Below are positions 11,021 to 64,000 of a stretch of 64,000 bases of DNA, one piece after another. How positions within the stretch are numbered: the stretch's first letter is position 1; the number at the start of each line of letters is the position of its first letter. Below the pieces are notes generated by a model. That model had not been told where the DNA came from. It searched no databases and saw nothing but the letters and a program-made list of their open reading frames with translations. Position numbers and translations under genes: made by a program. Source of the DNA: Adenophora triphylla var. japonica (taxonomy: Eukaryota > Streptophyta > Magnoliopsida > Asterales > Campanulaceae); assembly GCA_022495995.1 (NCBI GenBank), contig JAFEMH010000756.1, positions 310,001-374,000 on the forward strand. Direction: 5' to 3'.

Positions 11021-11210
11021 CCGGGTTGATACCTTAAAAACAATCATTCCCTGTCAAAGACCGAACTACTACCGGCCACATTCCCACTCTGGATACGTAG
11101 GTAGCACTCTATCGCTAGGTTCAACCACTCGATCACTTGATCATCCTCACAAATATGGAGCCTATTTTATCGACGACCCCGGCCCGCTTCCTTCGAAAGC
11201 GCCGTCGCCA

Positions 11211-11218
11211 GAGGGGCT
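11211..11218 (+). other. RE1 polypurine tract
   Basis: GAGGGGCT lies just before the right LTR. The identical tract precedes the RE3 3' LTR (reverse complement at 22136-22143). Its position fits the plus-strand priming site of LTR elements. Confidence 0.65.
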
Positions 11219-11220
11219 AC

Positions 11221-12781: not shown

Positions 12782-12816
<35 letters not shown>

Positions 12817-13050
12817 CAAAGGATTTTGAATGTTTGGAAGACTCGTTTTTACGAGGCGTTCCGGGTGCACATTAACGTCCTTCCCGGCACGTAACATGAC
12901 CTCCGAACCTAAATCTCTGATCTCGGGCTTTTTTTAAAGTTTTGGCCTTCAAAATTAAAATGGCGTGGCGACTCCGTTTTTCCGATTTTATTTGGTTTTT
13001 CAAAGAAACGCAAAAATCGAAATTTTCCCGCGAATGGCAACATCATCACA
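11221..13050 (+). repeat. RE1 3' LTR
   Basis: About 1830 bp. The expected first bases TGTAAGTGCTCC read CCGTAAGTGCTCC here, and the LTR ends in CATCATCACA. A TATA-like TATAAAT at 11567-11573 sits in a promoter-like context that is conserved in RE3. A CA microsatellite lies at about 12787-12813 and the U5 block at 12815-12935. Over the 1237 bases that align with the left LTR it carries dozens of one- and two-base insertions absent from the four sister LTR copies, which looks like consensus error or unusual decay. Confidence 0.9.
11567..11573 (+). promoter_or_regulatory. TATA box of the RE1-family LTR
   Basis: CCCTATAAATTGGAACCC is conserved in the RE3 LTRs in reverse complement (around 21797 and 33140). 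It lies at an expected U3 position, about 350 bp into the LTR. It was recognised by motif only. Confidence 0.5.
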
Positions 13051-20438: not shown

Positions 20439-22133
20439 TGTGATGTACCCGATTTTTTTTGTGAAAATCAAACGGAGTCGCCACGCCATTTTTGTTTTAA
20501 GGGCCAAAACTTTGAAAAAAGCCCGAGATCAGAAATTTAGGTTCGGAGGTCACGTTACGTGCCGGGAAGGACGTTAGTGTGCACCCGGAACGCCTCGTAA
20601 AAACGAGTCTTCCAAACATTCAAAATCCTTTGTTGTGTGTGTGTGTGTGTTTTGGCCAAAATAAGTTGAAACTGAGGTAAGTAAAAATTGGGAACTCTTT
20701 TTAAGGCTTTAAACTGATCCCATGATTTTTTGGATGATTTTTGGGTTGAGATTTGGAACTCAAAAGATTTTTGGAAGTTGAAAACCATTTCTGCCAGAAT
20801 GAAAAAGGCAGTTGACCCTTGACTTTGAAATGGACTTTAGGGCTTGAAAACTCCAGAATATGGGAAAAGTCCGGGAATGAAAAATGTTCAAAACACCTTA
20901 AAAAAGGTTTCTATAAAATAACTTTTCATTTTGGAGATGATTTGAGGGGTCAAAACCTTCTGGAAATCTCAGATCTGAAATCTGGATTTCCAGAGACTGA
21001 TGAACTGACCTTTAAAAGAAAATTTGAAAAAAGGAGTTTTACTCACGCAAAAAATAAATTAAAAATATGTATGGAAAGCTATGGATGTTGGCTACAAAAA
21101 GTATTTTGTAGTCAACACCCAATTCCAAGTTTTACTGGGTCCAAAAAATAGGGAAATGGACTGAGTTCTCAGAACAATGCTACTGGACAGCAAGATGTTC
21201 TTGAAGGAAAATGTGATTTTTGGGGGATTTGCATCTATGTTCACCCCATTTTCATCCCTAGACTTTATTCCACTACCTTGTGTCAAGTGGTTATCATATT
21301 CAAGTCATCCTTGGGGAATTTATGGGGTTTAAACATATCCTTTGCAAAGGGAAAGGGGATCTTTGTAAAGATGAATTTAAAGAGAAAAATCAATTTGGAG
21401 ATTTAAAATGTAGACCATTTGAGATGGTCATTCATGAAGATGAACTTCAAGATGACCATCTTAGGTCAAAACTTAAGTTAAACTAGACATCAAGTAGATC
21501 CAAGTAAGAAGAACAAGATGAACAAGAAGTTAAAAGAGAATTTTAGGGTTTTGAGTAGGAGGGCTTTACCAATGGTGACACCCTATCTTCCTAGGCTTGG
21601 AATTTGACTTGAGGAGTATCAAGATTTGGTGTTTGGCTTGAGGAGTATCAAGGTTTGGTGTTTGGATTTGTGTTTGGAGTGAGATTGGGAAATATTCAAG
21701 AGAAAATGGTGGCAATCTAGAGATTCCCACAGTTTTCTCTCTATATTTCGCCAGAGTTTCGTTGCTGTGATCAAAATGTCTTGTGTAAACTGAGATAGGA
21801 GGGTTCAATTTATAGGACCCTGTGAGAAGCAAAGATGTCCGCGCGGACAAGGTAGGTGGCGTGCACTGTTCACTTCGCTGCTGCAGGCCTTTTGGACAGA
21901 AGGAATAATCTTTTTGAAAATTCAAACTGTTTGTGTTTTTCAACTTGCCAATTCGGGTTTTTTCTATTTCTTTTGCTTTTTAGGATTCCTTTTTTGGTTT
22001 AACTTTAAATGGCAAACCCTAATCTACCCTTGCTTGGTTAGAAAGGTTAGAAATTGTTAGAAATGTTAGAAATGTTAAAACTTTCGTTAACATTCTAACG
22101 AAAAAGCTACCAACTCAAATTGGAGCACTTACA
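20439..22133 (-). repeat. RE3 3' LTR
   Basis: 1695 bp. On the minus strand it starts TGTAAGTGCTCC and ends TACATCACA. It carries a TG/CA microsatellite near 20633-20652, the U5 block with CTCGT/ACGAG at 20525-20625, and the TATA-like site (reverse complement of CTATAAATTG) near 21800. The large region 20800-21540 shows chance ORFs in both strands, none conserved as protein. Confidence 0.93.
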
Positions 22134-31779: not shown

Positions 31780-33477
31780 TGTGATGTACCCGATTTTTTT
31801 TGTGAAAATCAAACGGAGTCGCCACGCCATTTTTGTTTTAAGGGCCAAAACTTTGAAAAAAGCCCGAGATCAGAAATTTAGGTTCGGAGGTCACGTTACG
31901 TGCCGGGAAGGACGTTAGTGTGCACCCGGAACGCCTCGTAAAACGAGTCTTCCAAACATTCAAAATCCTTTGTTGTATGTGTGTGTGTGTGTGTTTTGGC
32001 CAAAATAAGTTGAAACTGAGGTAAGTAAAAATTGGGAACTCTTTTTAAGGCTTTAAACTGATCCCATGATTTTTTGGATGATTTTTGGGTTGAGATTTGG
32101 AACTCAAAAGATTTTTGGAAGTTGAAAACCATTTCTGCCAGAATGAAAAAGGCAGTTGACCCTTGACTTTGAAATGGACTTTAGGGCTTGAAAACTCCAG
32201 AATCTGGGAAAAGTCCTGGAATGAAAAATGTTCAAAACACCTTAAAAAAGGTTTCTATAAAAGAACTTTTCATTTTGGAGATGATTTGAGGGGTCAAAAC
32301 CTTCTGGAAATCTCAGATCTGAAATCTGGATTTCCAGAGACTGATGAACTGACCTTTAAAAGAAAATTTTAAAAATGGAGTTTTACTCACGAAAAAAATA
32401 AATTAAAAATATGTATGGAAATCTATGGATGTTGGCTACAAAAAGTATTTTGTAGTCAACACCCAATTCCAAGTTTTACTGGGTCCAAAAAATAGGGAAA
32501 TGGACTGAGTTCTCAGAACAATGCTACTGGACAGCAAGATGTTCTTGAAGGAAAATGTGATTTTTGGGGGATTTGCATCTATGTTCACCCCATTTTCATC
32601 CCTAGACTTTATTCCACTACCTTGTGTCAAGTGGTTATCATATTCAAGTCATCCTTGGGGAATTTATGGGGTTTAAACATATCCTTTGCAAAGGGAAAGG
32701 GGATCTTTGTAAAGATGAATTTAAAGAGAAAAATCAATTTGGAGATTTAAAATGTAGACCATTTGAGATGGTCATTCATGAAGATGAACTTCAAGATGAC
32801 CATCTTAGGTCAAAACTTAAGTTAAACTAGACATCAAGTAGATCCAAGTAAGAAGAACAAGATGAACAAGAAGTTAAAAGAGAATTTTAGGGTTTTGAGA
32901 AGGAGGGCTTTACCAATGGTGACACCCTATCTTCCTAGGCTTGGAATTTGACTTGAGGAGTATCAAGATTTGGTGTTTGGCTTGAGGAGTATCAAGGTTT
33001 GGTGTTTGGATTTGTGTTTGGAGTGATATTGGGAAATATTCAAGAGAAAATGGTGGCAATCTAGAGATTCCCACAGTTTTCTCTCTATATTTCGCCAGAG
33101 TTTCGTTGCTGTGATCAAAATGTCTTGTGTAAACTGAGAGAGGAGGGTTCAATTTATAGGACCCTGTGAGAAGCAAAGATGTCCGCGCGGACAAGGTAGG
33201 TGGCGTGCACTGTTCACTTCGCTGCTGCAGGCCTTTTGGACAGAAGGAATAATCTTTTTGAAAATTCAAACTGTTTGTGTTTTTCAACTTGCCAATTCGG
33301 GTTTTTTCTATTTCTTTTGCTTTTTAGGATTCCTTTTTTGGTTTAACTTTAAATGGCAAACCCTAATCTACCCTTGCTTGGTTAGAAAGGTTAGAAATTG
33401 TTAGAAATGTTAGAAATGTTAAAACTTTCGTTAACATTCTAACGAAAAAGCTACCAACTCAAATTGGAGCACTTACA
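31780..33477 (-). repeat. RE3 5' LTR
   Basis: 1698 bp, near-identical to 20439-22133. Differences noted by eye include GAATCTGGG for GAATATGGG, AAAGAAC for AAATAAC, and GAGAGAGG for GAGATAGG, with a microsatellite length change. It terminates at CTTACA, followed by TSD GAAAG. Confidence 0.93.
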
Positions 33478-48640: not shown

Positions 48641-48859
48641 CTCCAATCTGGATCACCCTCTTCCGAGTTCCCGGGAAACACCGCTGACTCACTCAAATGC
48701 AGTCTCGAACACCCGGAACTCTCCAAAAAACCCTCCAAACCCTTTAAAAACCCTCAAAGGCCCAAAAAACCACCAAACAAACTAAGGGGGGACCTTTCTG
48801 GGACAAACAAACACAAAAGGACTTTTGGGGAATTCTGCAAAATTTGGGAAAAGCATGGA

Positions 48860-49011
48860 AGTCCGTACGGACCTCTTTGCATGCCATAAAGGCCCGTACA
48901 GACCTTCTTGCTACCTAATCTCATGATTACTGAATCCCCTTAAAGTCCACGAGATTCCCCTAAATCCGGGAAAACCAAAATTTTGATTTAGCATGGAGGT
49001 CCGTACGGACC
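48860..49011 (+). promoter_or_regulatory. Palindromic promoter sites of the RE4 LTR
   Basis: Sites: 48860-48873 (AGTCCGTACGGACC), 48891-48904 (GGCCCGTACAGACC) and 48998-49011 (GGTCCGTACGGACC, perfect 14-bp palindrome). The first two are 31 bp apart start to start. The third ends 21 bp before the TATA box. The same pair with the same 31-bp spacing occurs at 60101-60145 and 63600-63644. Confidence 0.72.
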
Positions 49012-49032
49012 TTCTTGCACGAAAATTTTGAC

Positions 49033-49040
49033 TATAAATA
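49033..49040 (+). promoter_or_regulatory. TATA box of the RE4 LTR
   Basis: TATAAATA followed about 25-40 bp later by a C/T-rich stretch (CCTCCCTCTTCTACTCTCTCC). Confidence 0.6.
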
Positions 49041-50026
49041 GAGGGCTCCCCCTCCCTCATTTCAGACACCTCCCTCTTCTACTCTCTCCCTAGGCCTTCT
49101 GGCTTCCCTCTAAGTCCTTCTGAGGCACTCCCGGCCCCTTTCGGTTCCTCCCGAGGCCTTCCGAGCCCCCTTGTGGTGCTCCGAAGCCTTTCCGAGCGCT
49201 CCCGAGACGCTCCCGCGCCCCCCCGAGGCACTCTTGAGGTACTCTGAGGCCTCTCGTGGTAATCCGAGGCCTTGCCTGGTCTTTCCCGAGGCGTCCCGGC
49301 TCTTTTCGAGTCAAACCGGCAACTCGGACGCACGCCGGAACTCTGCCCGAACGCAACCGACGATCCCGACGCACGCCGAACCTCTGCCCAAATCCAACCG
49401 ACGATCCCTGCGATCCCAACGCACGCCGAAACTCTGCCCGAGTGCACACCCGACAATCCCAACGCACGCCGAAGCTCTGTCCGCAGACAACCGGCACATC
49501 CGGAAGCAATCCCGCTCCGCCCCAGAACACTATCCATCCTCAAACACTATTCCCCCGCGGAAGACAGACACGAACCAACATTGGTAAGGCTTTCTTCCCA
49601 CACTATTTCAATACATTTCAATAAGCAGTGTTCAATGTAGACATCCGACACAGCATGCATTTTTAAAAGCACACACAAACACACACAACATTTAAAGAAA
49701 GAAGGGGTACCGAAAGACTTGTTTTTTAACGAGGCGACTCGGGTGAGCTCTAATATTCTAATATTCTCTTTCCGAGGAGTAACCTGACCTCCGAACTCAA
49801 AAATCTCATCACACAAAAAAAAACAGTTTATTATTTATTTTTAAACTGATGCCTTTTCTCAATGTTTTGGGCTTAATCAAAACGGCGTGGCGACTCTACA
49901 AAGCAAAACACAGCGAGACACTTCCAATGCGAACACAAAAACGCAGACGGAAAACGCGAACGCAATTCGAAAACGCCAGATGCCGGGGCGCGACCGCGCT
50001 GCCTCTCGGATCCGGGCAATTTCAGT

Positions 50027-50044
50027 TGGCGACTCCACTAGGGA
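50027..50044 (+). other. RE4 primer-binding site
   Basis: TGGCGACTCCACTAGGGA, two bases after the LTR end. It differs from RE1's at a few positions near the 3' half. Confidence 0.72.
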
Positions 50045-51207
50045 ATATTTTGTTTTAAAAAACTTTTAAACAAAACAAAAGATTTTTAAAACGATGATGA
50101 AGGTCAAACTTTCATTTTACCCCTTTCTTTAACTGTTGTGTGTGTGTGCATATGCTTTACTTTTTTATTTTACAAAAAAATAAAAATACAAAAAAATGCA
50201 TCAATATACATCTGTGCCATACATTTAAAATTCTTCAAAAAAATTATATTTTACTCAAAAAAAGAATTTTAGAGAACGCACACTACTCGCACTGCTGCCT
50301 CGGTACACCGCACGCTACTCGCATTGTTGCCTCGATACACCGCACGCTACTCGCACTGATGCCTCAGTACACCGCACGCTACGCGCACTACTGCCTCGGA
50401 TACACTGCACACTACAACCCTTAACCCGGGGTGGTCTTAGTTGCAGTTCGTTTGGCCTTCCTACGCCTCTCGGACGCGCACGGGATCATCCCAAACATCC
50501 CATCCTAGTCAAGCGTCAACCCTGCACGTTTGAGTCTTGAGTCACACTCTGTCCAGACTCGGTTGGTTTTTACCCAATCCGTGTCATACAAGCCTGGATA
50601 CATATACCATGCCGGCCATTTTCTGAGTCGAAGCTCAGAACTCAAGATCCCTTGCGCAAGCAAAGCGATGAAAGGTCATGCTAAAATCTTGACCCGATCT
50701 TGATTTTCCGAAGCTACACCCAGACGATGTTCCGTCCCGAAAATACATCCATGCCCACATGACACCATGTCATCAAGCCTTTAATACGTCAGCCATGACG
50801 ATATGACCCAGTAAACGCCTAACGTCACAGATCCCTTGCGAAAGCAAGGTAAAGAGAGGTCATGCCGAACTCTTGACCCGATCTTGACTCAGGTGTCGAC
50901 TCGGCTCACTATTCACATGGCTAACGCATTAAAACGAACATGACAGGCTCGGTCCTTAGGTTCAATTTTTTCTTTTAGGCCGATGGAAACCGCTTGCCCT
51001 ATAGGACCCTCGCCCGGGGCTGTCCACCCCGGGATATCGAAATACAGGTGCAAAACGAGGGGCTTATAGCGGCACAGATGGTCTCCACTGACCCAGGATC
51101 TAGCATAGTTGCGAAAAAGAAGAGCAATCTTTTCCAACCTACCTAGGATTCTGAGAAAACACCGTTTTAAGTAAACTAAAACAAAAAAAAGGAGAAACGG
51201 AAACCGC
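50045..51207 (+). other. RE4 untranslated leader
   Basis: Non-coding. It has four tandem units of about 32 bp at 50278-50415 (CACCGCACGCTAC and TGCCTCGGTA). Two similar segments with CCCTTGCG-AAGCAA and AGGTCATGC occur at 50650-50680 and 50830-50865. The conserved pre-gag block is at 50985-51180. Confidence 0.7.
51013..51033 (+). promoter_or_regulatory. Leader stem-loop (RE4 copy)
   Basis: Perfect 7-bp stem CCCGGGG (51013-51019) with CCCCGGG (51027-51033), loop CTGTCCA. It lies 175 bp before the gag ATG. Confidence 0.6.
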
Positions 51208-52845
51208 ATGTCACGTGAGCTTTCCCCCCTTTTTATCCCGAAAGGCCTTCCCGTGTCTAAACCTTACCCGTCACCTCCTCCAGCGAACCGAGAGTGGTTG
51301 AGAATACCCGGGAGCCGCCTTTTCAGTATTGACGTTACAAGGTCCGACAGCCCTTCCAGTTCAGTGGTCCGCACCATCCGCTACTCCCCCATGACAGGAT
51401 CAACAGATAATAGTGAGGGAAACGGAACCCCGCCACTAAGAAACCTTCAGACAATCCACCTCCATCTTCAGTATCACGCCCTCAATTTCAACAACCCAGG
51501 GTACGGGATGGTATACACTCAACTGCCTCCCCAAGACTCCCGAATGGAGATCCCATCAGCCAATCCACCTCCATCTTCGGTATCCATCCCCAAAAACGAC
51601 AATTCGCCTCAACCTACTGATCCCCACATGGCTTGGTTGATCGAGCAAATGAAGGACATGCAAGGCAAACTAGCCATTTCTCAGAAGGACTCCCTCATAC
51701 ACACTGATCTAAACAAGGTGGTCCCGCTTCCTCCAAAATTCAGGATGCCGGAAATGGAAAAGTTCGATGAGACAGAATGCCCAAAAACCCACATCGACAC
51801 ATATGTATTGGGTATGAGAGCAAAAGGGGCAACCCCTCAACAAATGGCGGATCACTTCCAGCATTCTCTCAAATCCACAGCGCTAAGGTGGTTCCTCAAC
51901 GTAAAGGCAGAAAACTGCTCCATGTGGGACCAAATCAGCGAGATCTTCCTGGAGAATTACCGCGCCAACCTTGAGTGGGAGACAAACCGCCATGATTTGC
52001 AGGCCACCGAACAAAAGGACGACAAGCCTGTGGGTGAGTTCTACAAAAGATGGAACTGGAAGCTAAGCGAGATAATGGATCCGCTTTCCAAAGAAGAGCA
52101 AATGGACATCTTCCATTCCTGCCTCAATCCTTCTCTGAGGACCTTGATCAGCCATCACTTCTATCCAGATCTCCGTGCCATGGTCAACGCTGGAACCAAG
52201 TTCGAAAAGACCCTGAGCCTTCAAAAGACAACAGCAACCCCTGCTTCGTCTTACCGCTATCGAACAAACCTGTCAAATCCATCACCTGTCCCGAACAAAG
52301 GAAAGGAAGCAGCCGGAACAGTGCACTACATCCAAAATGGATCTCAAGTAAACCGTGATCAAGCACCCCCAAGGAACAACAATCCCCCTCGCTTCCCACA
52401 GTTCCAGCATTTCGACAACCTCGAAATGCCTCTGGGCCAAGTATTCGAGGCATTGGTAAAGCGAAATCTCCTCAAACCTCTCGAGAATTTCCAACCAAAG
52501 ACTCTCAAGCCCAACATGGATATGAGCAAGCACTGCGCCTTCCACAACTACCCCGGTCACACCACCGACAATTGCTTCGTGCTAAAGCAAGTGGTCCAAG
52601 GGCTAATCAAAGAGGGAAAGTTGGAACGCCCCCGTGGCCCCAACACCATTGGAAATCCATTCCCCCGAAATGAAAAGGTGAACATGATAGCCTTTGACGA
52701 AATTCCAAGCGAGAATAAGCCTCCTGCAGTCTTCGAAATCGTCAACATGCTATCTCGCTACGACTGGGAACGTGAAACCAGAGTCAAATGGTCCCATGAC
52801 CGGGAATCTAGACAGGAACGCCCAAGGGCAAGTGTCTCCATATGA
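51208..52845 (+). CDS. RE4 Gag polyprotein
   Basis: 545 residues, intact, ATG at 51208. It forms the virus-like particle of the element. Order: Pro/Ser-rich N-terminus with ANREW (26-30), a linker with repeated NPPPSSVSIP-type text (about 118-128), the Retrotrans_gag domain at about 185-325 (ECPKTHIDTYVLGMRAKG, STALRWFLNVKAE, YRANLEWETNRHD, VGEFYKRWNWKLSEI), a Ser/Asn/Pro linker, then MPLGQVFEALVKRNLLKPLE (407-426). A knuckle-like C443-x2-H446-x4-H451-x4-C456 follows, then GLIKEGKLERPRGPNTIGNP. This layout is typical of Tat/Ogre Gag. It is the only intact gag in the window. It shares its frame with the protease, separated by the single TGA at 52843. Confidence 0.9.
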   Translation: MSRELSPLFIPKGLPVSKPYPSPPPANREWLRIPGSRLFSIDVTRSDSPSSSVVRTIRYSPMTGSTDNSEGNGTPPLRNLQTIHLHLQYHALNFNNPGYGMVYTQLPPQDSRMEIPSANPPPSSVSIPKNDNSPQPTDPHMAWLIEQMKDMQGKLAISQKDSLIHTDLNKVVPLPPKFRMPEMEKFDETECPKTHIDTYVLGMRAKGATPQQMADHFQHSLKSTALRWFLNVKAENCSMWDQISEIFLENYRANLEWETNRHDLQATEQKDDKPVGEFYKRWNWKLSEIMDPLSKEEQMDIFHSCLNPSLRTLISHHFYPDLRAMVNAGTKFEKTLSLQKTTATPASSYRYRTNLSNPSPVPNKGKEAAGTVHYIQNGSQVNRDQAPPRNNNPPRFPQFQHFDNLEMPLGQVFEALVKRNLLKPLENFQPKTLKPNMDMSKHCAFHNYPGHTTDNCFVLKQVVQGLIKEGKLERPRGPNTIGNPFPRNEKVNMIAFDEIPSENKPPAVFEIVNMLSRYDWERETRVKWSHDRESRQERPRASVSI

Positions 52846-52950
52846 TCTCTGCCACGATCAAGACACACCAACGGCTGGATCGAACGCTCCTCGGAGGAGA
52901 CTAAATCAAACGGCAGCACCGAAAGCGGTCTAGCCTTTACGGACGAAGAC

Positions 52951-53553
52951 TTGCCGATATGTGAAAATAGACATAACGAGGCTCTCCTCATCCTCATAAA
53001 GATAGAGATGTTCTACCTTCTGAACGTCTTAATTGATAACGGCTCCGCAGTCAACATCATTGCTTTGAGCACACTGAAACGCCTCCACGTCGACTGCTCC
53101 CTGATGAGACCTTCGCCCCGGATAATCCGAGCTTACGACTCCACTCCATGCCCTGTCATAGGAGTCATCAATCTGAGGATCCAATTCGACGCACAATTGG
53201 AGTCGGTGGAATTCCAAGTGGTGGACATCAAGCCAACCTTCTCCGCCCTATTGGGACGACCTTGGATACATCAGAAGAAAGCGGTATCATCTACTCTTCA
53301 CCAATGCGTGAAATTCATCAACGCCAAGGGAATCCTCGAGGTAATCCGCGGAAGCAGCACAATGGCAAGCGCTTGGCCAGCAAGCTATGACCCAGAAGAG
53401 GGTCCCGACATGAGCGAATACTCCTCTGCAGGCGAGACTCCAGCCCTGTCACGCTACAATGTGGATCCCTACATCCACGCTCTAAGCCGCGATGAGCTAG
53501 AAATCGAAGAACTCATGGGTCAAGATGACAACTCCGACCTATGCGACTGCTAA
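52951..53553 (+). CDS. RE4 aspartic protease region
   Basis: Same frame as gag; the intervening codons (52846-52950) are open, so gag and protease are one frame interrupted by TGA at 52843-52845. The active-site motif is VLIDNGSAVN (Asp at residue 29 of this ORF). The flap and C-terminal parts follow: IIRAYDSTPCPVIGVINLRI, VEFQVVDIKPTFSALLGRPW and STLHQCVKFI. D-N-G-S in place of D-T/S-G is usual in this lineage. The reading frame ends at TAA 53551, after an acidic tail. It would be made either by readthrough or from a spliced transcript; neither can be shown from sequence. Confidence 0.8.
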   Translation: MPICENRHNEALLILIKIEMFYLLNVLIDNGSAVNIIALSTLKRLHVDCSLMRPSPRIIRAYDSTPCPVIGVINLRIQFDAQLESVEFQVVDIKPTFSALLGRPWIHQKKAVSSTLHQCVKFINAKGILEVIRGSSTMASAWPASYDPEEGPDMSEYSSAGETPALSRYNVDPYIHALSRDELEIEELMGQDDNSDLCDC

Positions 53554-54243
53554 GAATGCTTGAAAGAGGATCAAGAGATGGATTCCCAGATGGAGATTGA
53601 CCGAGGATAGACCCATACTTCGCCGAAAACCCTCTTGAAAACTGGCTCATCACCAACCCGCTGGTACAGGACAACCCTCCGGCCGACACTCTCGGATCTC
53701 ACGGGGATAGCCCCCACAGCATAGTCCAATTCAACATCCCGGTGTCTGACCTAGACGAACATTGGCGCAACCTCCTCCAAAGCCTAATCAGAGAAGGCGA
53801 AATAGCCTACCCCCTCGAGTCGGACATCGTGAATGTCGTCCAAGCAAATATCCCAGATAAGGAGGCAGATTCTATGAAAATGATCAACATCAGCAAGAAT
53901 CAACTCCGAATCAGCGAATGCTTTGCCCTCCTGGAAGTAGCTCTCAGCGACTTCTATCATCAAGGTCCCCCAAGGTCCGGCAGCCACACTAATGGAGGGA
54001 CATCATCAGGGGAGCAACCAAAAACCTCCGCGATCTGGTTTGAAGTCGAACCACAGGCAAGCTATCCTCCGGGATCCCCCTCAACTGAAGAATGGCCACC
54101 AAAGCCATTGCCACCCTCTCTTGGCCTGCAGCCTGCAAAGAGTAATGAAGCCTGGTCCAATCCCTCGTCACCTAGAGTCTAGCTTCGAGTCATGTTGTCT
54201 AGGAATTCACGTCTTTTGAGTCATCTGACGGCTTTACGCCCAC
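53554..54243 (+). pseudogene. Post-protease pol linker of RE4
   Basis: An ORF at 53742-54182 with VSDLDEHWRNLLQSLIREGE and a Pro/Ser-rich tail. It has no reverse-transcriptase motif (no YxDD-type site and no LPQG block). In related elements this region lies between protease and reverse transcriptase. Here the transcriptase itself is absent. Confidence 0.5.
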
Positions 54244-54248
54244 AGATT
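54244..54248. repeat. Solo-LTR target-site duplication, left copy (AGATT)
   Basis: AGATT is repeated at 56103-56107 directly after the LTR. Confidence 0.88.
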
Positions 54249-56102
54249 TGTGATGTACCCGATTTTTTGAAATCAAACGGAGTCGCCACGCCATTTTTGT
54301 TTTAAGGGCCAAAACTTTGAAAAATGCCCGAGATCAGAGATTCGAGTTCGGAGGTCACGTTACACGCCGGGAAGAACGTTAGTGTTCACCCGGAATGCCT
54401 CGTAAAACGAGTCTTCCAAGCTTAAAAACCATTTGTTTGTGTGTGTGCGTGTGTGTGTGCTACTTTGGCCAAAATAAGTTCAAACTGAGGAAACCAAAAT
54501 TTGTGAATTCTTTATAAGACTTTAAACAAATCCCATGATTTTTGGTGTGATTTTTGGGTTGAGTTTTGGAACTCAAAATATTTTTTGAAGTTGAAAACCA
54601 ATTCTGCCAGAATGAAAAAGGCAGTGGACACTTGATTTTGAAATGGATTTAAGGGCTTTAAAACTTCATAATCTGGGGAAACTCAGAGAATGAAAATTGT
54701 TCAAAACACCTTAAATAAGGTTTTTATAAAAGAAATTTCTATTTTGGAGATGATTTGAGGGACCAAAACCTTCTTGAAATCTCATATGTGAAATCTGGGT
54801 TTCCAGAGACTGATGAACTGACCTTTGGAAAATAATTTGAAAAAGGGAGTTATACTCACGAAAGAAATAAAGTAAAAATATTTCTGGAATGCTACGGATG
54901 TTGGATACAAAAAGTATTTTGTAGTCAACACTCAATTCCAAGTTCTTCTGTGTCCAAAAAATTAGACCATGGACAGAGGTCTTAGAACAATGCTACTGGA
55001 CAGCAAGATGTTCTTGAGGGAAAATGTGATTTTTTGGGGGATTTGCATCTATGTTCACCCCATTTTCATCCCTAGACTTGATTCCACTACTTTTTGTTAA
55101 GTGGTTATCATATTCAAGTCATCCTTGGGGAATTTATGAGGTTTAAACATGTCCTTTGCAAAGGAAAAGGGGATATTTTGTAGAGATGAAATTAAAGAGA
55201 AAAATTAACTAGAGATTTAAAATATGGACCATTTGAGATGGTCATTCATGAAGATGAACTTCAAGATGACCATCTTAGGTCAAGACTTAAGTTAAACTAG
55301 ACATAAAGTAAATGAAAGTAAGAAGAACAAGATGAACAAGAAGTTAAAAGGGAGTTTTAGGGTTTAAAGAAGGAGGGCTTTACCAATGGTGACACCCTAT
55401 CTTCCTAGGCTTGGAATTTGACTTGAGGAGTATCAAGATTTGGTGTTTGACTTGAGGAGTATCAAGATTTGGTGTTTGGATTTGTGTTTGAGTGGATTCG
55501 AGGCTTGAATGTGTTTAGGGTTTGATGATAGAGTTGGTCAAAGAGAAAACAAGTAGATAACACTTAAGTCCTCTATGTTTTCTCTCTAATCCTCCTCTTT
55601 GGTGGTGGTTTAAGCTTGAGCTTGTGTGTATTTAAGAATGATTTGAGAGTGTTTGGAGTGAAATTGGGAAAGATTCAAGAGAAAATGGTGGCAATCTAAG
55701 GATTCCCACTGTTTTCTCCCTATTTTTCGCCAAGGTGCAGCTTCTGTGAGCAAATTGTGTTGTGTAAACTGAGAGAGGAGGGTTCAATTTATAGGCCACT
55801 GTGAGCTTCATTTTGATCCACGCGGACTGGATCGACGCGTGCCCTGGTGCATTAAATTCTGCTCCAGGCTTTGGACAGGAAGAATATTATTCAAAAATTC
55901 CAGCAGTTTGTGTTTTTCAGCTTGCTTAATTCGGGTTTTTTCAATTTCTTTTGCTTTTTGAGATTCCTTTCTTTGTTTATCTTCAAATAGAAATGCCTAC
56001 TTTACTCTTGCTTTGTTAGAAAGGTTAGGAATTGTTAGAAATGTTAGGGCTTTCGTTAATTTTCTAACGAAAAAGCTACCAACTCAAATTGGAGCACTTA
56101 CA
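54249..56102 (-). mobile_element. Solo LTR of the RE1/RE3 family
   Basis: An 1854-bp LTR whose minus strand starts TGTAAGTGCTCC and ends TACATCACA, flanked by AGATT. No interior sequence adjoins it, so it is the product of LTR-LTR recombination. It is more diverged than RE3's LTRs and about 155 bp longer: an extra block at roughly 55485-55640 (with GAGAAAACAAGTAGATAACA) partly repeats the neighbouring GTTTTCTC and TTTGGAGTG sequence. It interrupts RE4 between protease and integrase. Confidence 0.9.
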
Positions 56103-56107
56103 AGATT
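56103..56107. repeat. Solo-LTR target-site duplication, right copy (AGATT)
   Basis: Matches 54244-54248. Confidence 0.88.
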
Positions 56108-56399
56108 GTGAGTCCATGATCAACAATGTATCTTCTATACGCTTTCAATAAAAGGTCCGACCTTTCTAAAAATCCTTTCATTGCATCTTTAACGAATGAT
56201 GAGTTAACTAATCAAAACAGTTAATAACAATTCATCTAACAAAGAAGCAGACACATTAATTGAACGAATGCATTAAACAAACATTTAAGCATGTTATCAA
56301 ACGAGAGAAAAACCGGGCCCAAGCTGCCAAGAAAGATTTTAATAAAAGTGAACTTGGAGAAATACTGAAGAGCCAAAGAGACGCTAGTCGGTGGCCACC
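56108..56399 (+). other. Segment between the solo LTR and integrase
   Basis: About 290 bp with one short ORF (56260-56463) of basic composition. No reverse-transcriptase or RNase H motif. It probably marks the deletion junction that removed those domains. Confidence 0.45.
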
Positions 56400-57682
56400 T
56401 CATCAGAATTGCATAACAACCAGATCTTACAATACCTCAAAAACGGGAAAACCGCCTTCATGAATGAAGAAGGTCAACGCAGGGAAGGAGCCAAAGCCAA
56501 GAGCATCATGGCCCTTAAACACCTAGCCTCTCACTTGTCATCCTTGGGGACATGTTATACAAAAAATGCTACCAAGGACCACTCCTACGCTGCATCAGCC
56601 AGGAAAAAGCAAGTGAGCTCATGAACGAAGTCCACAACGGGGCTTGCGGCCCCCACATGAACGCCAGAGCCCTGATGCAAATCATTCTTCGGATGGGCTA
56701 TTACTGGATCTCCATGGAGGCAGACTGCATCCACTTTGTCCGAAGCTGCGACAAGTGTCAACGGTTCTCCAACCTCAACCATCTACCTCCTCACGATCTC
56801 TACTGCATGACTACACCCTGGCCCTTCGCCACGTGGGGAATCGACGTCATCGGAAAAATTGCTCCTCCAGGTAGCAACGGCCACGAGTTCGTCTTGGTAG
56901 CCATCGACTACTTCACCAAATGGGTCGAAGCCAAGTCCTACAAGGTGCTCACCTCCAAGAAAGTGGCACATTTCCTCAAGGAAAACATCATCTGCCGATA
57001 CGAAATCCCGAACGAGGTCATATCAGATAATGGCTCCCACTTCGAAGGTGAATGCGACAGACTGCTGGCCGAATTCAAGATCACGCGCCAGAAATCTTCT
57101 CCCCATCGGCCACAAACGAACGGCGCCGTAGAAGCAGCAAACAAGACCCTCGAACGGATCATCCGAAAAATGACCACCCGAGGACGCGATTGGCCCGAGA
57201 AGCTGCACCTTGCACTTTGGGGCTACAGAACATCAGTCAGAACAGCCACGGGAGAAACTCCATTCGCCCTAACATACGGGATGGAAGCAGTCTTGCCCAT
57301 TGAAATGGAAATTCCCTCACTCCTAGTGTTGCTGGAAAACGAAATCAACGAAGTCGAATGGCTCCGAAGCTGACACGACGAACTAGCTCTGCTAGACGAG
57401 CGACGACTAAAGGCCATGGAACACGTCCGAGCCTACCAAAACAGGATGGCTAGAGCTTTCGACAAGAAGGTCAAGTCACGAGACATCAGGGAAGGCCACT
57501 TGGTACTCAAAGAAAAGCCTCCCACTCGAACCAACCCACTGGGAAAATGGGAACCAACATGGATCGGCCCTTTCGTGGTTCAAAAGATCTTCTCCGGAGG
57601 TGCCATGAAGCTGACAGACCTAGACGGCAATCCCTTCATGAATCCAGTCAACGGAAGCAAACTTCGCAGATACTTCGCCTAA
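56400..57682 (+). pseudogene. RE4 integrase, nearly intact but interrupted
   Basis: Integrates element DNA. A pre-integrase stretch (ILQYLKNGKTAF, 56400-56545) is joined by a frameshift near 56550 to the main ORF 56552-57373. The zinc-binding residues are H28, H35, C66 and C69. The catalytic triad is D98 (WGIDVIGKI), D159 (VISDNG) and E194 (NGAVEAANK), a D-x34-E spacing that goes with SSPHRPQTNG in Tat/Ogre integrases. After an in-frame TGA at 57371, the same frame continues to 57682 with the C-terminal DNA-binding part (GPFVVQKIFSGGAMKLTDLD). One stop and one frameshift separate it from a complete frame. Confidence 0.88.
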
Positions 57683-58460
57683 AGAAGAACAGTTGTGCAT
57701 CTCTTGGCACTCCATGTAGTGTCGAACTACGCAGACCTGAGCCCTCTAGTCCGGGGAAACGTAGGCAACCTTAATTGGTCCGGTCTAAAGAACACACAAA
57801 AAAGTCAAAAGTTTGAATGTCAACCAAGACCTCCATCAAACTACACACTTTCCAAGGCATGCCCCCAACATCACCTTGACCAAGTCAAACGACGGCGGCA
57901 ACATCAAAGGACATCCGAGGGTCACTCAACGTCAAACGACTGACCCATGTCAACTTCCAAGCCAGGGGCTTGTCTTCGCCCTCACGCGCTTCAAAAAAAA
58001 AAGAGCTCGAACAAAGGCTCTCAAAAAAATAATTAAAAAATAATAAGCTCAAGCAGAAGCTACAAAAATGAGGGCCAGAGCCCGACGCCAACAAACAAGA
58101 GGCAAGGAAGCCAAGGAAAAGACCGTCAAGATGACTTGTCAAGGGATCATCCAACCTCCCATACAAATACAAAACCCAGGCGAAAGGGGATTGCCGTCAA
58201 GGCCCAGGCTGCTTCAGTCCGCAAATGCAACAGAAAAGTCCAAAGATGGACGCCATCAAGTCTCACAAATAAACAAAAGGCGAACAAGAGATCTTGCGTC
58301 TCGACAAATCTTTAAAAGTAAATCACAAATCACTAACGATTACAACATTTCTTGATGAGTTCAAGCACGGTCTACTCTCAAGTTCACAACATGCTAAAAG
58401 ACAGCTTAATACATTTAACAAATAATGTGTCTGCAATACAATGAATGGATACCTAGGAGG
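57683..58460 (+). other. RE4 3' region next to integrase
   Basis: Non-coding. It holds the stem-loop at 57727-57764, a segment shared with RE2 34240-34420 (57850-57990), and A-rich stretches with GAGCTCGAAC-like words near 58000-58060. Confidence 0.6.
57727..57764 (+). promoter_or_regulatory. CTACG/CGTAG stem-loop, RE4 copy
   Basis: Outer stem CTACG/CGTAG with inner CCC/GGG, then GCAACC. It starts 45 bp after the integrase frame ends. Confidence 0.58.
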
Positions 58461-59983
58461 TCATTTCGTGCCATCTGCGCTTGTCCCCTCGCCATTCTTC
58501 CCTTTCTTTCCTCGTCCCCGGTGAGTCTTCTTTCGCTCCACGCGAGCCAGCTCTGCATCTCTCAGTCCGAGATTAGGGGTCCTCCCCGTAGAGTCAAACA
58601 ATCCAGTAGCTCGTAGGGCTTCATTCACCCGTGCTTTGGCTCGGATCTCCTCCCTGCGAGTCTGCAAAAGAGGACCTCTCTCTGTCAGTCGGTCAACTCT
58701 GGTCTCATAGTCAAACAAAGTGTCTCCCGTAACATCCTGAGGGTCAGACCAGGCTTCGGCACTCCTAAGGCAATAGCTGCGACGGCAATCGGGCCCCAGA
58801 ATCGCTTCACGCCTGCTCCCCAAAACTACTTGGGACTGCCCAACGCACCGCTCATACCAATCCAGGTACACGGTAGTCAATACAACGCTCTCCCGACGTC
58901 GAAGGAGCACCACAGGAGGAAAAGCGGAATACTTCCATACCCTCAAGAAATACAAAAGAGCACTTGGAGCAGCCATACAGAGAGGAGCTACCTCCGCAGT
59001 AGCAAGGTCATCCCAGCCCAACAAAGGCTCCTGCCTCATCCCGAACTGCCGAGAAACAAGCGACGGAATGTAAAAGGAGGACCAAGACAAACCTGGAACT
59101 CTGACAACATAGGACCCTTCCTGCAAGGCCCTCCTAGTCTCAATCCCCCAATGCGGAACCCACCAACGGATCTGATGCGTACCAAGCTGTGCCATCCATC
59201 TCTCCCAGGCGGACTGATCCATATCCAACACAAGAGGTCGCCGAGCAAACGACCACGGGCTAAACGACGTCGGAGCCTCGGGCATAGCCTGAAGTCTCTC
59301 TCGCAGCCACAAAGTGAGCAAAGCAGGGCTTCCCCCTCTCATGAACCTATCTCCAGTCGCCAGACGATCAATGCCGTGACGGGTCTCCCCAGCACCAACG
59401 GAACAACATCCTCTCCAGCCCTGCAGTGCCCAACCACATCCAGCAAAGCATCGTCGCATACCCCAAGGGAGCTGACCATGAAAAGCGTCGCTATCACGCA
59501 CAAGGCAAATGCATCCCACGAGACATCACTCTCGTCATCGCTCATGAATCGCTCCGGCAGCGCAGAAATGTCAATGTGACCCGAATCAAAGGTCATGCCC
59601 TGTACTTCTTTCAACGAAGCCCGAATAAAGCATGCAAGCTTCACACTCACGGCGGCACCGCCAATCAAAGGAAGCGAGATGGCCTCCACCTCCGGTCCTC
59701 CCATCAAAGCTCGAAAATCCTCAAAGGTGGGGGTTACTTCATTGTAGGAGAAGCTATACACATGCCTCCTAACGTCCCAGAACCTCGCGGCAGCCCGCAA
59801 AAATTCCCAATCAGGAATCAACTCCATAAGGGACCAAACCGAGCAGAGTCAAAATCTCACCTCGAAAGCCCGCCTCTGATGCCTCATACAGTGTCGCATC
59901 CACATTTTCAGCCGCTCAAGGAAGTATGCTTGCCTCTCCTTCGAAAGCCTCGGCAAAACTTGTGGAACATACGAAGAATCCAT
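58461..59983 (-). pseudogene. Antisense gene B in RE4: DUF7745-like plant transposon-associated protein
   Basis: Opposite in strand to gag and integrase. ATG at 59983 (MDSSYVPQVLPRLS). Three blocks lie in shifting frames: 59983-59850 (RQAYFLERLKMWMRHC), 59827-59339 (WEFLRAAARFWDVRRHVYSF, VTPTFEDFRALMGG, EDVVPLVLGR) and 59519-58461 (GSPALLTLWLRERLQ, IRWWVPHWGIETR, SFYIPSLVSRQFGMRQEPL, and a Lys/Arg-rich tail). The pattern of a 'FWD...P-T-EDF...G' block and later 'RQFG' block resembles the DUF7745 family found beside plant transposons. Stops at about 59848 and a frameshift near 59360 break it. Its function is unknown. A palindrome pair lies about 120-160 bp upstream. Confidence 0.6.
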
Positions 59984-60100
59984 GGCAAAAATGAAAGTTC
60001 CTAGAGAAAATGGGGAAGAAAGCACGAAATGACTGCAAATGGGAAATGGGGGAAGTCCAGAAATCCTGAAAAAGCTTATCCTCTCCCCAAAAGCAGAAGA
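59984..60100 (-). other. Presumed 5' flank of antisense gene B
   Basis: 117 bp between the gene B start and the palindrome pair. I see no clear TATA box. Confidence 0.4.
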
Positions 60101-60145
60101 GATCCGTACGGACCTCTTTGAATGCCTAAAAGGTCCGTACGGACC
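60101..60145. promoter_or_regulatory. Palindrome pair upstream of antisense gene B
   Basis: GATCCGTACGGACC at 60101-60114 and the perfect palindrome GGTCCGTACGGACC at 60132-60145, 31 bp apart start to start. Between them is CTCTTTGAATGCC. The flanking CTTCTTGCAGCATGG also resembles the LTR copy at 48998-49020. Confidence 0.72.
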
Positions 60146-60476
60146 TTCTTGCAGCATGGCCCACAATTTTCAGCAAACAGCACAATAGCCACTGTTCCCA
60201 GCAGGACCTTGCTCCAAACTGTCCAAATTCTGGCCAAAGCCATTCCTGGAAAGCATACATTACCCATAAACGAACTCCCAGCTCACGTGGCATGCACAAA
60301 TAATAAATTAGCAACAATTCCTAGGACAAACCCCGGGAATCACAAAATACGACGTTACATCTTAAAATAAAATACTTTGCTGTGCAAATACAAGTGTTTT
60401 ATTACAGGTACTCAAAATGTCTGTTGCTAAACAAAAAAAAAACAAAAAAAATGGAAATAGGGAAAGCAAATGAGCT
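60146..60476. other. Intergenic segment between the two antisense genes
   Basis: About 330 bp; nothing recognised except an A-rich run at 60430-60450. It separates the end of gene A from the promoter side of gene B. Confidence 0.45.
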
Positions 60477-63431
60477 CTACTCCGACTCCTCATCATCGAC
60501 CTCATCAAACGTGAAGTCAGGCATGTCGCTGAACTCGCCAGTCACGCCCTCATCATTCGAATACTGAACCCCCTCCTCGGGCAAGTACTCGAAGTAATCC
60601 GCCGGATCGAGCCCGATAAGAGGATCAAAGAAGGAAGGCTCCAACGAACCCTCTCCCTGAGACCCCTGCGCCGGCAAGAACTGGTGGATGATCGGCTGCC
60701 TCCGGACCCCCGAAGACGTCTCGGCATCCATGCTATGCCGCCCCCGAAAGGGTCCTTCCTGCTGCGGCTCTGGCTCAGCTCTCGAAGGAGGAACGTCAAC
60801 AGAATGCCTCGAAGGCATCGGCTCGTACGCCGGTACACGCCGCGAAGGCCTGCAAGACAGCTTCCTCGCCATCTTCTTCGTGAAAGACCGCAGCGCCACA
60901 TAACGGTGGGTCAACGTGTCGAAGGATCTCCCCGAGACCTGCACAAGCAAACAAGCAACGAAACGCTTAGCAAAATGAATACATTCATACTCAACAAAAG
61001 AGAAAAATGCAGAAAAGATGCCAAGATGGAAAAGAGTAAGAACACTTACCGGCGCATCCGGGTCAACCCGATAAGCAGCAGGAGGCAGCTCAGGCACGGG
61101 TACCGACACCCTCCGCCTCGACGAGTCGCCCCGTACATATCTAAAGTCCGGCCCCGGCACCGAAACATCTGGGGGACGAGGTGGACCATCCCGCATCTCT
61201 CTCGCCAACACCTGTGGCGTCCTCAGCTTCCTCCTGACGAAGGATCCATACTCCTCATACAAAATAAACTCATCGGCATCCACGTCGACCAAATACCTCT
61301 CGTGCTCTATCAAATCCATGTCACGGGGATTCAGCATCCCAAAAGGTGGATCCCACGGAGCCATAGGGAGCATACCCGGGCCATGGTGCCACAAGACCCT
61401 CTCCCCCAAGTACATGACATCGCAAGTCAAACCCCGCAGCATCTTCCTCTGCGCCGTCACCACGGGACCACCCTCAAGCTCGTCGTCTCCATACCGAGCC
61501 CAGGGATACAACTCAAACTCCATCGGGCTATCTCTCCCCAGGTACTCCTGTACATCCCCGTAGGCAATGGTGAGCTTCCCTCTATTCGTCCTCCTCCTCC
61601 TCAACGGACGGGCCCAAACCTCAAAGATAGCAGATAGGCCTCATGGCCTCAAAGATCTCGATCCCACGAAAAACACCAGAAGATCTCATAAAACCGCACC
61701 TGCGACAAAAGCAGAAAAGGCTCAGTGCAAAAGAAAACAGAGAAATGACAAACTGCTAAATCAAAAACAACAGTAAACTCATACCTCCAAAGCAAAGTCA
61801 AAGCAGCCCAAAGAACTGGCCACGCCTCGGCTAAATCGGTCCAAAGAAAAATAAAACTCGGCCAGGCCCGCCTCGCCCCAAGCTATCTCGCCAATCCTCT
61901 CCAAATCCACCAAACTCTCCAGCAGAGGAAAAGGAGCCGAGGTAGCGTGGTTCGAGAACAAAGTCTCGGAGAGGGCAAACCACAAGAAGGAGCGCGCCAG
62001 CTACTCCGCTATCACCAAGCCAGTACCCCGGTGATAGGCTCCGATGTTGGCTGTAATTTGTGCCTCAACATCGCCATACAGCATGCCAGGCCCCTGCGAG
62101 GAAAAGGTGCAAAGCCCAACAGCTCAGCCAACGCCCCATCGGACATCCTGTCCCTTCATCTCACTGGCCCTCCTTTGAAGGAAAGCCCAGTAATCGCAGC
62201 GAAGTCGGTAGGAGTCACCGTCACCTCTCCCCAGCTCAAGTGGAAGGTGTGTGTGGTATCCCACCAATACTCGGACAAGCCCAGGAAGATACTCTTGTTC
62301 TTCCTCGTATCCGAAATCCCGGCCAAGTTCTCCACGAACGCGCCCAAACCAGAAGTAAATACTAGCCTCTTAGGGCTCGGCCTGCCCTCCCTAGAGATGT
62401 CCGGCAAGTGCTGCCACAACTCAACCACAGCCTCGAGCGACACCCGAGACTTCATCTTCTTGGCTTTCCTGCACAAAAGCCCCTCATCCCGCAGTAAACA
62501 CAAAGAAAGGTACGTCACAAGTGCTTAATGCAAAATACCAAAATGAAACAAAAGTCCGTCCCAACAAGGCAAAACATAAAAAAAAAAAAAAACAAAGTCC
62601 GTCCCAACACGGCAAAACAAATGTAACCCGTCACAAAACACGGCACACATTGCACATAATTTTCACATGTAACCCGTCACAAAACACGGCACACATTGCA
62701 CATAATTTCCCCATGCAGTCCGTCACAAAACACGGCACACACTATACAAATTTTCTCAACAGAGGGATTAAGCCCTACACGACACATTTTCAAAAAGCCC
62801 ATCACAAAACACGGCACACATCGCACATAAACTCCCCGCAAAAGTCCGTCCCAAAAACACGGCACACACTACGTGACACATTTTCAAAAAAGTCCATCCC
62901 CACACGGCACACTTTCAAGACAAAACCCGTCACAAAACACGGCACATGTCACACTTTTTTACAAAGTCCGTCCCTACACGACAATTTTTCACAATGTACA
63001 TACATAGAAATAGCATAGGGTACAAAATACCAAAGCATGCATTTCAAGGGGAGGCACTTTATTTTTACAAATAAGAGCTAATCTCCACATTTTTGCACAA
63101 AAATCACATATCCACAATTCTCACATGCTCAATTTCAACAATTCATTGCGAATTTCACGAAAAGCATGGCAATGACAAGAAGCCTCAAATATGCGAAGAA
63201 TTAAAACCTAGTTCTAGCATACAATAATTCGAGTAAAGAATCAAGATGAAATTGATTTCTTACCTCCCCGACGGCTCTACCTCGCATATTGTGCACCTCC
63301 GGATCCGGATACAACACATCCGGATTCCTCGACGAAGGCACGAACGAAGTGCAATTCCTTTGAAGGTCCGCCCTTTGCTCAATGGCTTCTTGACCCCGTT
63401 GACGACGACCTCTCCTTGCTCTTTTCGCCAT
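60477..63431 (-). pseudogene. Antisense gene A in RE4: plant mobile domain (PMD)-like protein with introns
   Basis: Inferred exons on the minus strand: 63431-63263 (MAKRARRGRRQ start, ends at GAG/GTAAGA); about 62468-61785 after TTTTGTGCAG, ending at GAG/GTATGAG; 61699-61050 after TTTGTCGCAG, ending at CCG/GTAAGTG; 60938-60477 after TTGTGCAG. Exon 2 carries the PMD signature (EYWWDTTHTFHLSWGEVTVT, DFAAITGLSF, then AELLGFAP, FLWFALSETLFSNH and AWGEAGLAEFYFSLDRFSRG). The last exon has an acidic C-terminus (DFTFDEVDDEESE). An in-frame TGA near 62154 and a frame change near 61650 break it. Exon 1 to 2 phase does not match with the first acceptor. PMD proteins are known inside plant Ty3/gypsy elements; their role there is unclear. 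Confidence 0.68.
62525..62985 (-). repeat. Tandem repeats inside gene A intron 1
   Basis: About eight degenerate units of 45-60 bp with CCGTCACAAAACACGGCACA or the variant GTCCGTCCCAACACGGCA. CCGT and ACGG can pair within units. They occupy most of the inferred intron 62469-63262. Confidence 0.78.
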
Positions 63432-63599
63432 TGACAAGCGATTCAAGCGAAATGCGGAAGATTTACTAAGGAATTTGGATCAAAAATGGAGTTTTCTCCT
63501 TCTCTCTCTCTCTGCTGCTCACGAAACTGGAAGAGGAAAATGGGGGTGATGCCTCATTTTTGGAACTGGTCAAAATCTGGGAACTCGAAATTGCACAAA

Positions 63600-63644
63600 G
63601 GTCCGTATGGACCTCTTTGCAAACATAAAAGGTCCGTACGGACC
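63600..63644. promoter_or_regulatory. Palindrome pair upstream of antisense gene A
   Basis: GGTCCGTATGGACC at 63600-63613 (one mismatch) and the perfect GGTCCGTACGGACC at 63631-63644, 31 bp apart start to start. The pair starts about 170 bp upstream of the gene A ATG. CTCTTTGCAAACATAAAA lies between them, close to the LTR spacer CTCTTTGCATGCCATAAA. Confidence 0.72.
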
Positions 63645-63744
63645 TCTTTACATTTTAGGGTCAAATTACTTCTTTGCCCTTATAATCTTTGCCCCTGGCT
63701 GTCCAAAGGCCTATTTCAGCAGATTCAATGCAGTTTGATCCTTA
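63645..63744. other. Short segment before the terminal array
   Basis: No gene seen. It includes CCTGGCTGTCCAAAGGCC. Confidence 0.4.
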
Positions 63745-63962
63745 ACCCAACAAAACCAACACCGGCCGTCATCGTAAGCCCGGATTTCGCCCACTAAACG
63801 GCAACACAAACACCGGCCGTCATCGTAAGCCCGAATTTCGCCCACTAAACGGCAACACAAACACCGGCCGTCATCGTAAGCCCGGATTTCGCCCACTAAA
63901 CGGCAACACAAACACCGGCCGTCATCGTAAGCCCGGACCTCGCCCACTAAACGGTAAAACAA
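63745..63962. repeat. 51-bp tandem array
   Basis: Four near-identical 51-bp units with ACCGGCCGTCATCGTAAGCC and TTCGCCCACTAAACGGCAAC. Because 51 is a multiple of three, the reverse strand stays open with a 17-residue repeat. It lies in the RE4 3' region, near the window end. Confidence 0.93.
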
Positions 63963-64000
63963 ACACAAAAGGCACAAACGCCTCCAAAACACAAATCTCA

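Follow-up and report, generated by a model that had tools for sequence, protein, structure and literature searches.

Paired palindromes shared by the long terminal repeat promoter and the antisense gene flanks of a gypsy-like element in Adenophora triphylla: probable cis-regulatory sites

The closest precedent for a palindrome module shared by several parts of one plant retrotransposon would appear to be that of the Sireviruses, in which palindromic repeats are found in the long terminal repeat (LTR) upstream of the TATA box and once more ahead of an additional gene, env (PMC2829016). The locus described here lies in a stretch of 64,000 nucleotides from Adenophora triphylla var. japonica (assembly GCA_022495995.1, contig JAFEMH010000756.1, positions 310,001 to 374,000; the whole stretch is called ‘the window’ below), and holds an element, probably of the Tat type, that is Ty3/gypsy-like to judge from its domain order and its gag and integrase families. 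Short palindromes stand upstream of the TATA box in its LTR and, as pairs, 5' of two antisense genes, termed gene A (plant mobile domain, PMD) and gene B (DUF7745). The reading favoured here, with a probability of roughly 0.7, is that these palindromes would be conserved cis-regulatory sites of one high-copy Ty3/gypsy family, bound by a dimeric factor and jointly regulating sense and antisense transcription.

The likeness to Sireviruses extends from placement (upstream of the LTR TATA box, with further copies 5' of genes A and B) to the half-sites CGGAC and GTCCG, which are those of the HOPIE, Usier and OPIE-2/PREM-2 motifs (comparison with Table 3 of PMC2829016). However, Sireviruses belong to Ty1/copia, their motif has the core CGG-CCG and its extra copies lie ahead of an env gene in sense orientation, whereas the element considered here is gypsy-like, has the core CCG-CGG and carries its extra copies 5' of antisense genes; moreover, the Sirevirus motif is present in at least eight copies per element, and the available sections of that study do not describe pairing at 30-31 bp (PMC2829016).

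A second likeness is to Retand elements, in which antisense open reading frames (ORFs) are likewise found between pol and the 3' LTR and have been proposed to play a regulatory role; those ORFs carry TRP28 (two clusters without it have also been reported) rather than the PMD and DUF7745 domains found here, and the available text of that work mentions no shared promoter motif for them (PMC11963269). No antisense ORF matching TRP28 (PF04195) was found in the scanned pieces of the present element, at E<=1 in one scan and E<=0.1 in another.

VANDALs are DNA transposons. In the VANDAL/VANC system a short motif is similarly repeated in the non-coding parts of one element family, but there the binder is known and is encoded by the element itself (PMC5735166). 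Finally, gypsy-encoded PMD proteins (‘PMD-A’) have been described across the angiosperms, in a paper whose available parts treat host PMD function and phylogeny rather than element promoters (PMC5418596). In one library of open-licence papers, no prior description was found of a palindrome module shared by a gypsy sense promoter and antisense flanks, and GTCCGTACGGAC matched the text of no paper.

Seven palindromes in one element

A motif scan of the window located seven GGTCCGTACGGACC-like palindromes, all within 48860-63644 and confined to one element, at 48860 (one mismatch), 48891 (two), 48998 (none), 60101 (one), 60132 (none), 63600 (one) and 63631 (none). The LTR has a pair plus one copy close to the TATA box, and each of genes B and A has one pair on its 5' side. 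An earlier note on this DNA had placed seven palindromes in just this way, as three pairs with a start-to-start distance of 31 bp and a further copy (48998-49011) that ends 21 bp ahead of the TATA at 49033, and had regarded them as one module common to the LTR promoter and to the regions 5' of the two antisense genes; the scan bears this out, and the module recurs in other copies of the element. Measured to the TATA box motif CTATAAATA, the paired LTR palindromes end 158 and 127 bp ahead, and the further palindrome 20 bp ahead. The parts of the element are laid out as follows.

48859-48912, plus strand: 54-bp unit in the LTR U3 with the palindrome pair 48860-48873 and 48891-48904 (homologous pair in other LTR promoters)
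48998-49011, plus strand: TATA-proximal palindrome of the LTR, P1 (motif scan; spacing to CTATAAATA in surveyed LTRs)
49032-49040, plus strand: LTR TATA box CTATAAATA (TATA pattern scan; anchor of the U3 rows)
50027-50044, plus strand: primer-binding-site-like sequence directly 3' of the 5' LTR (read from the sequence)
51208-52845, plus strand: gag ORF (Retrotrans_gag PF03732, E 1e-8)
56552-57373, plus strand: integrase ORF (Integrase_H2C2 and rve)
58461-59983, minus strand: antisense gene B (DUF7745, E 5e-4; third-position excess), broken frame in this copy, start codon at 59983
60100-60153, plus strand: 54-bp unit whose palindrome pair spans 118-162 bp upstream of the start codon of gene B (motif scan)
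60477-63431, minus strand: antisense gene A (PMD, E 1.7e-12 and 1.7e-6), apparently spliced, broken frame in this copy
63264-63431, minus strand: gene A exon 1 (splice site read from the sequence)
63599-63652, plus strand: 54-bp unit whose palindrome pair spans 169-213 bp upstream of the start codon of gene A (motif scan)

Dinucleotide shuffles of the window gave a mean of 1.28 matches at up to three mismatches (largest 6, with seven reached in 0 of 100 shuffles) and of 0.077 at up to two mismatches (maximum 2), with a pair within 100 bp in 0 of 300. Among the window's 115 near-palindromic 14-mers, the families reaching at least seven places after matches with alike flanks had been dropped were that of GGTCCGTACGGACC and a GCCATGG/AAGGC simple-repeat family; if the alike-flank filter is lifted, several other families reach 7-10 places.

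The three pairs proved to be copies of one 54-bp unit, 76-85% identical to each other (46/54 positions for LTR and B, 45/54 for B and A, 41/54 for LTR and A), and thus do not represent three independent instances of the pitch. Past this unit no homology was found among the three places, except for a marginal score between the B and A flanks that was equalled by 7 of 200 shuffles. Within the unit, palindromic positions differ less often than the remainder (10/84 versus 20/78; Fisher p 0.027, for comparisons that are not independent of one another). All seven copies have an A at position -1 and share a TYYTT tail; GCA comes next, each of its three bases having one exception among the copies. When three 54-bp units were placed at random, one fell within each promoter window in 4 of 200,000 trials, or in 70 of 200,000 if placement was restricted to non-coding DNA, for promoter windows that had been defined after the fact.

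The unit has one strand sense at all three places, so that genes A and B, being antisense, have it in inverted orientation with respect to their transcription. The notion of a directional cassette that had been turned around to face the antisense genes was rejected for the window on this basis; the palindromes themselves are directionless.

With regard to the surrounding element, gag and integrase are encoded on one strand, while A and B are antisense, downstream of pol and before the 3' LTR, which lies beyond the window in this copy and is visible in others. A minus-strand LTR-like stretch (54249-56094, with relatives at 20439-22133, 31780-33477 and 11056-12979) interrupts pol, and is probably the reason why no long pol ORF is present between 53553 and 56552. 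Tandem arrays (46-bp and 51-bp units) are found at 62618-62962 and 63751-63966, in the presumed gene A intron and 5' of the gene A pair, respectively.

Recurrence and conservation in other copies

The source assembly comprises 2.48 Gb, and exact pairs were counted in it for spacers of 0-15 bp and of 16-18 bp, the latter range admitting pitches of 30, 31 and 32 bp alone. The count came to 9,176 places for spacers of 16-18 bp and to 273 for those of 0-15 bp, the reversed-pattern control yielding 0 in both cases. Among the 50 places listed of the 9,176, a hand count gave a pitch of 30 bp in 23, 31 bp in 25 and 32 bp in 2, so that ‘exactly 31’ is too strict. The genome comparison that the earlier note had called for upholds recurrence at the LTR, the A flank and the B flank, but the fixed spacing it had claimed holds only in the window and in all of the sampled gene B pairs, and elsewhere varies from 30 to 32 bp. 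The same 50 listed places include five triplets of LTR, gene A flank and LTR spanning 15-17 kb; the middle pair adjoins a gene A exon 1 match in 5/5 of these (L018-L022), an exact TATA box is present in the gene A-proximal LTR of 4/5 (not in L019), and the far LTR was assigned by its similar spacer.

Variant forms are also present. Exact GTCCGCGCGGAC pairs (centres CG..CG; spacer 15-21 bp) number 24 genome-wide, all at pitch 31, and nine of them have a dissimilar spacer (G000:C242:63275-63317 and eight similar places). Pairs with CA..TG centres number 54, most with the spacer type of the B flank, and pairs with TG..TG or CA..CA centres number 16. The spacers between exact pairs at the fetched loci contain TGCATG/CATGCA, which we take to be an RY-like core, in 14 of 25 distinct cases. 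Among prokaryote contigs, two GTCCGTACGGAC palindromes 30 bp apart were seen at two Streptomyces places (L001:6978-7019 and L002:1609-1650), and are probably unrelated; viral contigs contained no relatives by two patterns or three proteins.

For comparison of individual copies, 20 stretches were fetched, of which 12 (L018-L029) were aimed at the 3' parts of elements and eight (L030-L037) were centred around other pairs. A survey of LTRs in L003-L037 and the window, for which an exact CTATAAATA was required, produced 32 rows corresponding to 27 distinct LTRs, five having been fetched twice; the palindrome clusters of L008 and L019, which have no exact CTATAAATA, were excluded. At least four palindromes are present in 29/32 rows, at spacings of 98-101, 29-31 and 105-108 bp (with the five-site L021 departing at the last), and the innermost palindrome ends 19-20 bp ahead of CTATAAATA in 30/32. 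The window's own LTR, which is without the outermost site, probably derives from a four-site promoter of which three sites remain.

One LTR (L021:8332-8612) has a fifth palindrome near the TATA box, so that gain of sites, and not just loss, seems to have occurred.

The innermost and outermost palindromes (P1 and P4), neither of which was used for locus finding, differ at 0.025 per site (38/1540) among 11 non-redundant LTRs taken from 27 four-site instances, versus 0.172 (1984/11561) for the rest of U3. This is an approximately seven-fold slower rate of change, to be read as an upper estimate because the rate sample required four sites at up to three mismatches, a filter that favours conserved sites. 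The length from P4 to the TATA box is 270-272 bp in 11/11 of these LTRs. In a 20-row alignment of U3, the mean pairwise identity is 0.96 at the innermost palindrome, 0.69 at the outermost (which three rows do not have) and 0.72 outside the motifs.

At the antisense genes, a pair is found 5' of gene A exon 1 in 10 of the 12 3' stretches, at a pitch of 30-32 bp, although this count is not independent, because exact A pairs partly guided the choice of stretches; the two without such a pair (L025 and L026) show no match to gene A exon 1. Pairs 5' of gene B did not guide that choice and are present in 11/12 (L027 being the one without), all at pitch 31, as is the gene B pair of L036. For a ‘motif-blind’ set, a gene B piece served as protein query, and 20 copies were picked by eye among the best 150 of 44,480 candidates. 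Two recognisable sites at pitch 31 are present in 19/20 of these copies, while L048 has lost one, and across the 38 sites the final ACC is invariant, positions 3-6 and 9-11 are kept in 33-36, and the first two bases are kept in 22 and 28. In a motif-chosen set of 13 rows, identity is 0.97 for the B palindromes versus 0.75-0.93 around them.

Both antisense genes are under coding selection and look like real genes. When the window copy was compared with 10-12 others, differences at codon positions 1/2/3 amounted to 0.182/0.161/0.338 for the C-terminal part of gene A, 0.149/0.138/0.302 and 0.150/0.072/0.285 for its PMD parts, 0.171/0.112/0.328 for its exon 1 and 0.120/0.117/0.227 for gene B piece B_2, so that in all five the rate of change at third positions is about double that at first and second positions; the excess is weaker in B_1 (0.125/0.098/0.157). 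Three non-coding controls are nearly flat (0.133/0.108/0.149, 0.113/0.141/0.140 and 0.100/0.100/0.125). A third gene B piece has its excess at a different position (0.091/0.154/0.094), as expected from the shifted frame of the window copy, in which a stop and a frame change disrupt the PMD frame of gene A, and frame changes that of gene B. The DUF7745 match of the window's gene B is under the curated cut-off, whereas that of copy L036, which has a longer open frame, is over it (E 1.7e-9) and is accompanied by a sub-threshold PMD match to the same residues. A protein database queried with a gene B piece returned no relative at E<=1e-3 among 63 candidates, no solved structure was related to L036 gene B at E<=1, and the structure predicted for a gene B piece was unusable (mean pLDDT 34.5).

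Several of the results weigh against the idea of conserved regulatory sites, in addition to the filter already mentioned for the LTR rates. The outermost LTR site is missing in 3/32 rows, the window's included. The ratio of indels to substitutions is 0.153 in U3, 0.317 upstream and 0.134 downstream of the TATA box, and since U3 resembles the region downstream of TATA, conserved spacing alone proves little. In the motif-blind B flanks, both sites lie within one mismatch in only 7/20 copies; the palindromes (20 copies and the window) score 0.79 and 0.77 against 0.63-0.84 in their surroundings, and rank about 109th and 141st of 431 14-bp windows. Indels in the B pair block affect 2/20 copies versus a median of 10 in other blocks, a value equalled by 16 of 267 blocks. 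The B palindromes are thus no outlier in this set, and the case for selection at gene B is weak, depending mainly on recurrence and pitch. In addition, a minus-strand scan around A and B returned none of the TATA patterns sought.

Candidate factors and rival readings

Even so, the palindromes probably constitute a real cis-regulatory module, and the sharing of paired sites between the LTR promoter and the antisense flanks suggests one DNA-binding factor that would act on all of them. In the arrangement proposed here, a dimeric, sequence-specific factor would recognise the inverted half-sites TCCG/CGGA together with neighbouring bases; in the LTR U3 it would occupy four sites whose distances from the TATA box are set, and ahead of each antisense gene two sites separated by about three helical turns. 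A single factor could in this way switch the sense transcript, the PMD gene and the DUF7745 gene on or off together. As for the origin of the pairs, a 31-bp monomer was probably dimerised and the dimers copied in direct orientation within the element.

Such a factor is more likely to be a host protein than one made by the element, because a GTCCGCGCGGAC palindrome also precedes a TATA box in another LTR-like family. There, the GTCCGCGCGGAC palindrome is perfect, has a tail of the form ATCTTTGC and stands 22 bp ahead of TATAAAT on the minus strand, at 21837 and 33181 of the window. These are two nearly identical copies, the site having decayed in two other aligned copies, and the observation is a lead only. 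That the half-sites GTCCG/CGGAC are common to copia Sireviruses, to this other LTR-like family and to the present element hints at a common plant host factor.

The first alternative is that the palindromes are bound by an element-encoded protein, the product of PMD gene A or DUF7745 gene B, in a form of auto-regulation or anti-silencing comparable to that of VANC; we regard this as unlikely. It would account for the coding selection on both antisense genes and for the presence of the same sites at A, B and the LTR, and has parallels in VANC21, which binds short motifs in the non-coding parts of its own element (PMC5735166), and in the PMD proteins MAIN and MAIL1, which are required for gene expression and the silencing of transposable elements and whose dependent genes share a promoter motif (PMC7156037, PMC9899485). 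Yet the one instance of this ‘DOWN’ motif taken for comparison (CATGCAGTTT, from one promoter) is absent from the window, and only CATGCA, as found in 14 of the 25 distinct spacers, is in common with it; the scanned pieces of A and B match no Pfam DNA-binding domain; and a perfect variant palindrome 5' of TATA in another LTR-like family is unexpected for a private system. The ‘DOWN’ motif was accordingly discarded as the shared site. A fuller regulatory circuit, in which the antisense-encoded PMD or DUF7745 protein would recognise the pairs at its own flank, at that of its sister gene and at the LTR, and so switch many copies together, is likewise doubtful.

It is rather improbable that the binding factors are SBP-box (SPL) proteins of the host acting on the GTAC core, as the earlier note had surmised. 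The centre is TA, giving GTAC, in 181/189 exact GTCCGNNCGGAC sites of the window and the fetched loci, which overlap and were mostly chosen by the TA form. An SBP-box target would be expected to have an invariant GTAC core, whereas in the motif-blind B flanks the centre is kept in 31/38 sites (the others having C or G) and is the least constant of positions 3-12; it has changed from TA to CG, TG or CA in copies L042, L049, L053, L054 and L056. Pairs with CG..CG (24) and CA..TG (54) centres exist, and TNCGTACAA, which we take to be the SBP-box consensus, is absent from the window. The proposed link is weakened by this variation, even though SPL proteins do bind GTAC (PMC7822796).

To a similar degree, it is improbable that the pairs are a functionless, decayed 31-bp minisatellite that was spread within a repeat-prone element. 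All seven copies begin alike as a 31-bp monomer with an asymmetric tail, the three units have one orientation, the element is full of tandem arrays, and the gene B palindromes of the motif-blind set are not conspicuously conserved, all of which such a history would explain; it would not explain the conserved number of LTR sites and their spacing from TATA, the slow substitution of the LTR palindromes, or the recurrence of pairs at the same three places.

Least probable of all is an RNA hairpin formed by each pair in the sense or antisense transcript, with a role in RNA processing or small RNAs, since the favourable predicted folds (on either strand, the three pairs reach -18 to -34 kcal/mol) would be expected of any two palindrome copies, the excess of complementary CA..TG centres (54) over like TG..TG/CA..CA centres (16) comes mostly from places that share one B-flank spacer type and probably form one subfamily, and the LTR sites, being located upstream of TATA, are not included in the sense transcript at its 5' end. 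RNA covariation at the pairs was judged unconvincing.

If conserved regulatory sites are indeed what the palindromes represent, then with 9,176 exact-pair places in one genome, one binding factor could encounter copies in great number. To our knowledge, the mode of expression of antisense genes in plant gypsy elements has not been settled; the site that sense promoter and antisense flanks have in common would allow antisense expression to be tested directly with one bait sequence. Should the binder instead turn out to be the element's own PMD or DUF7745 protein, this would provide a role for proteins of unknown function.

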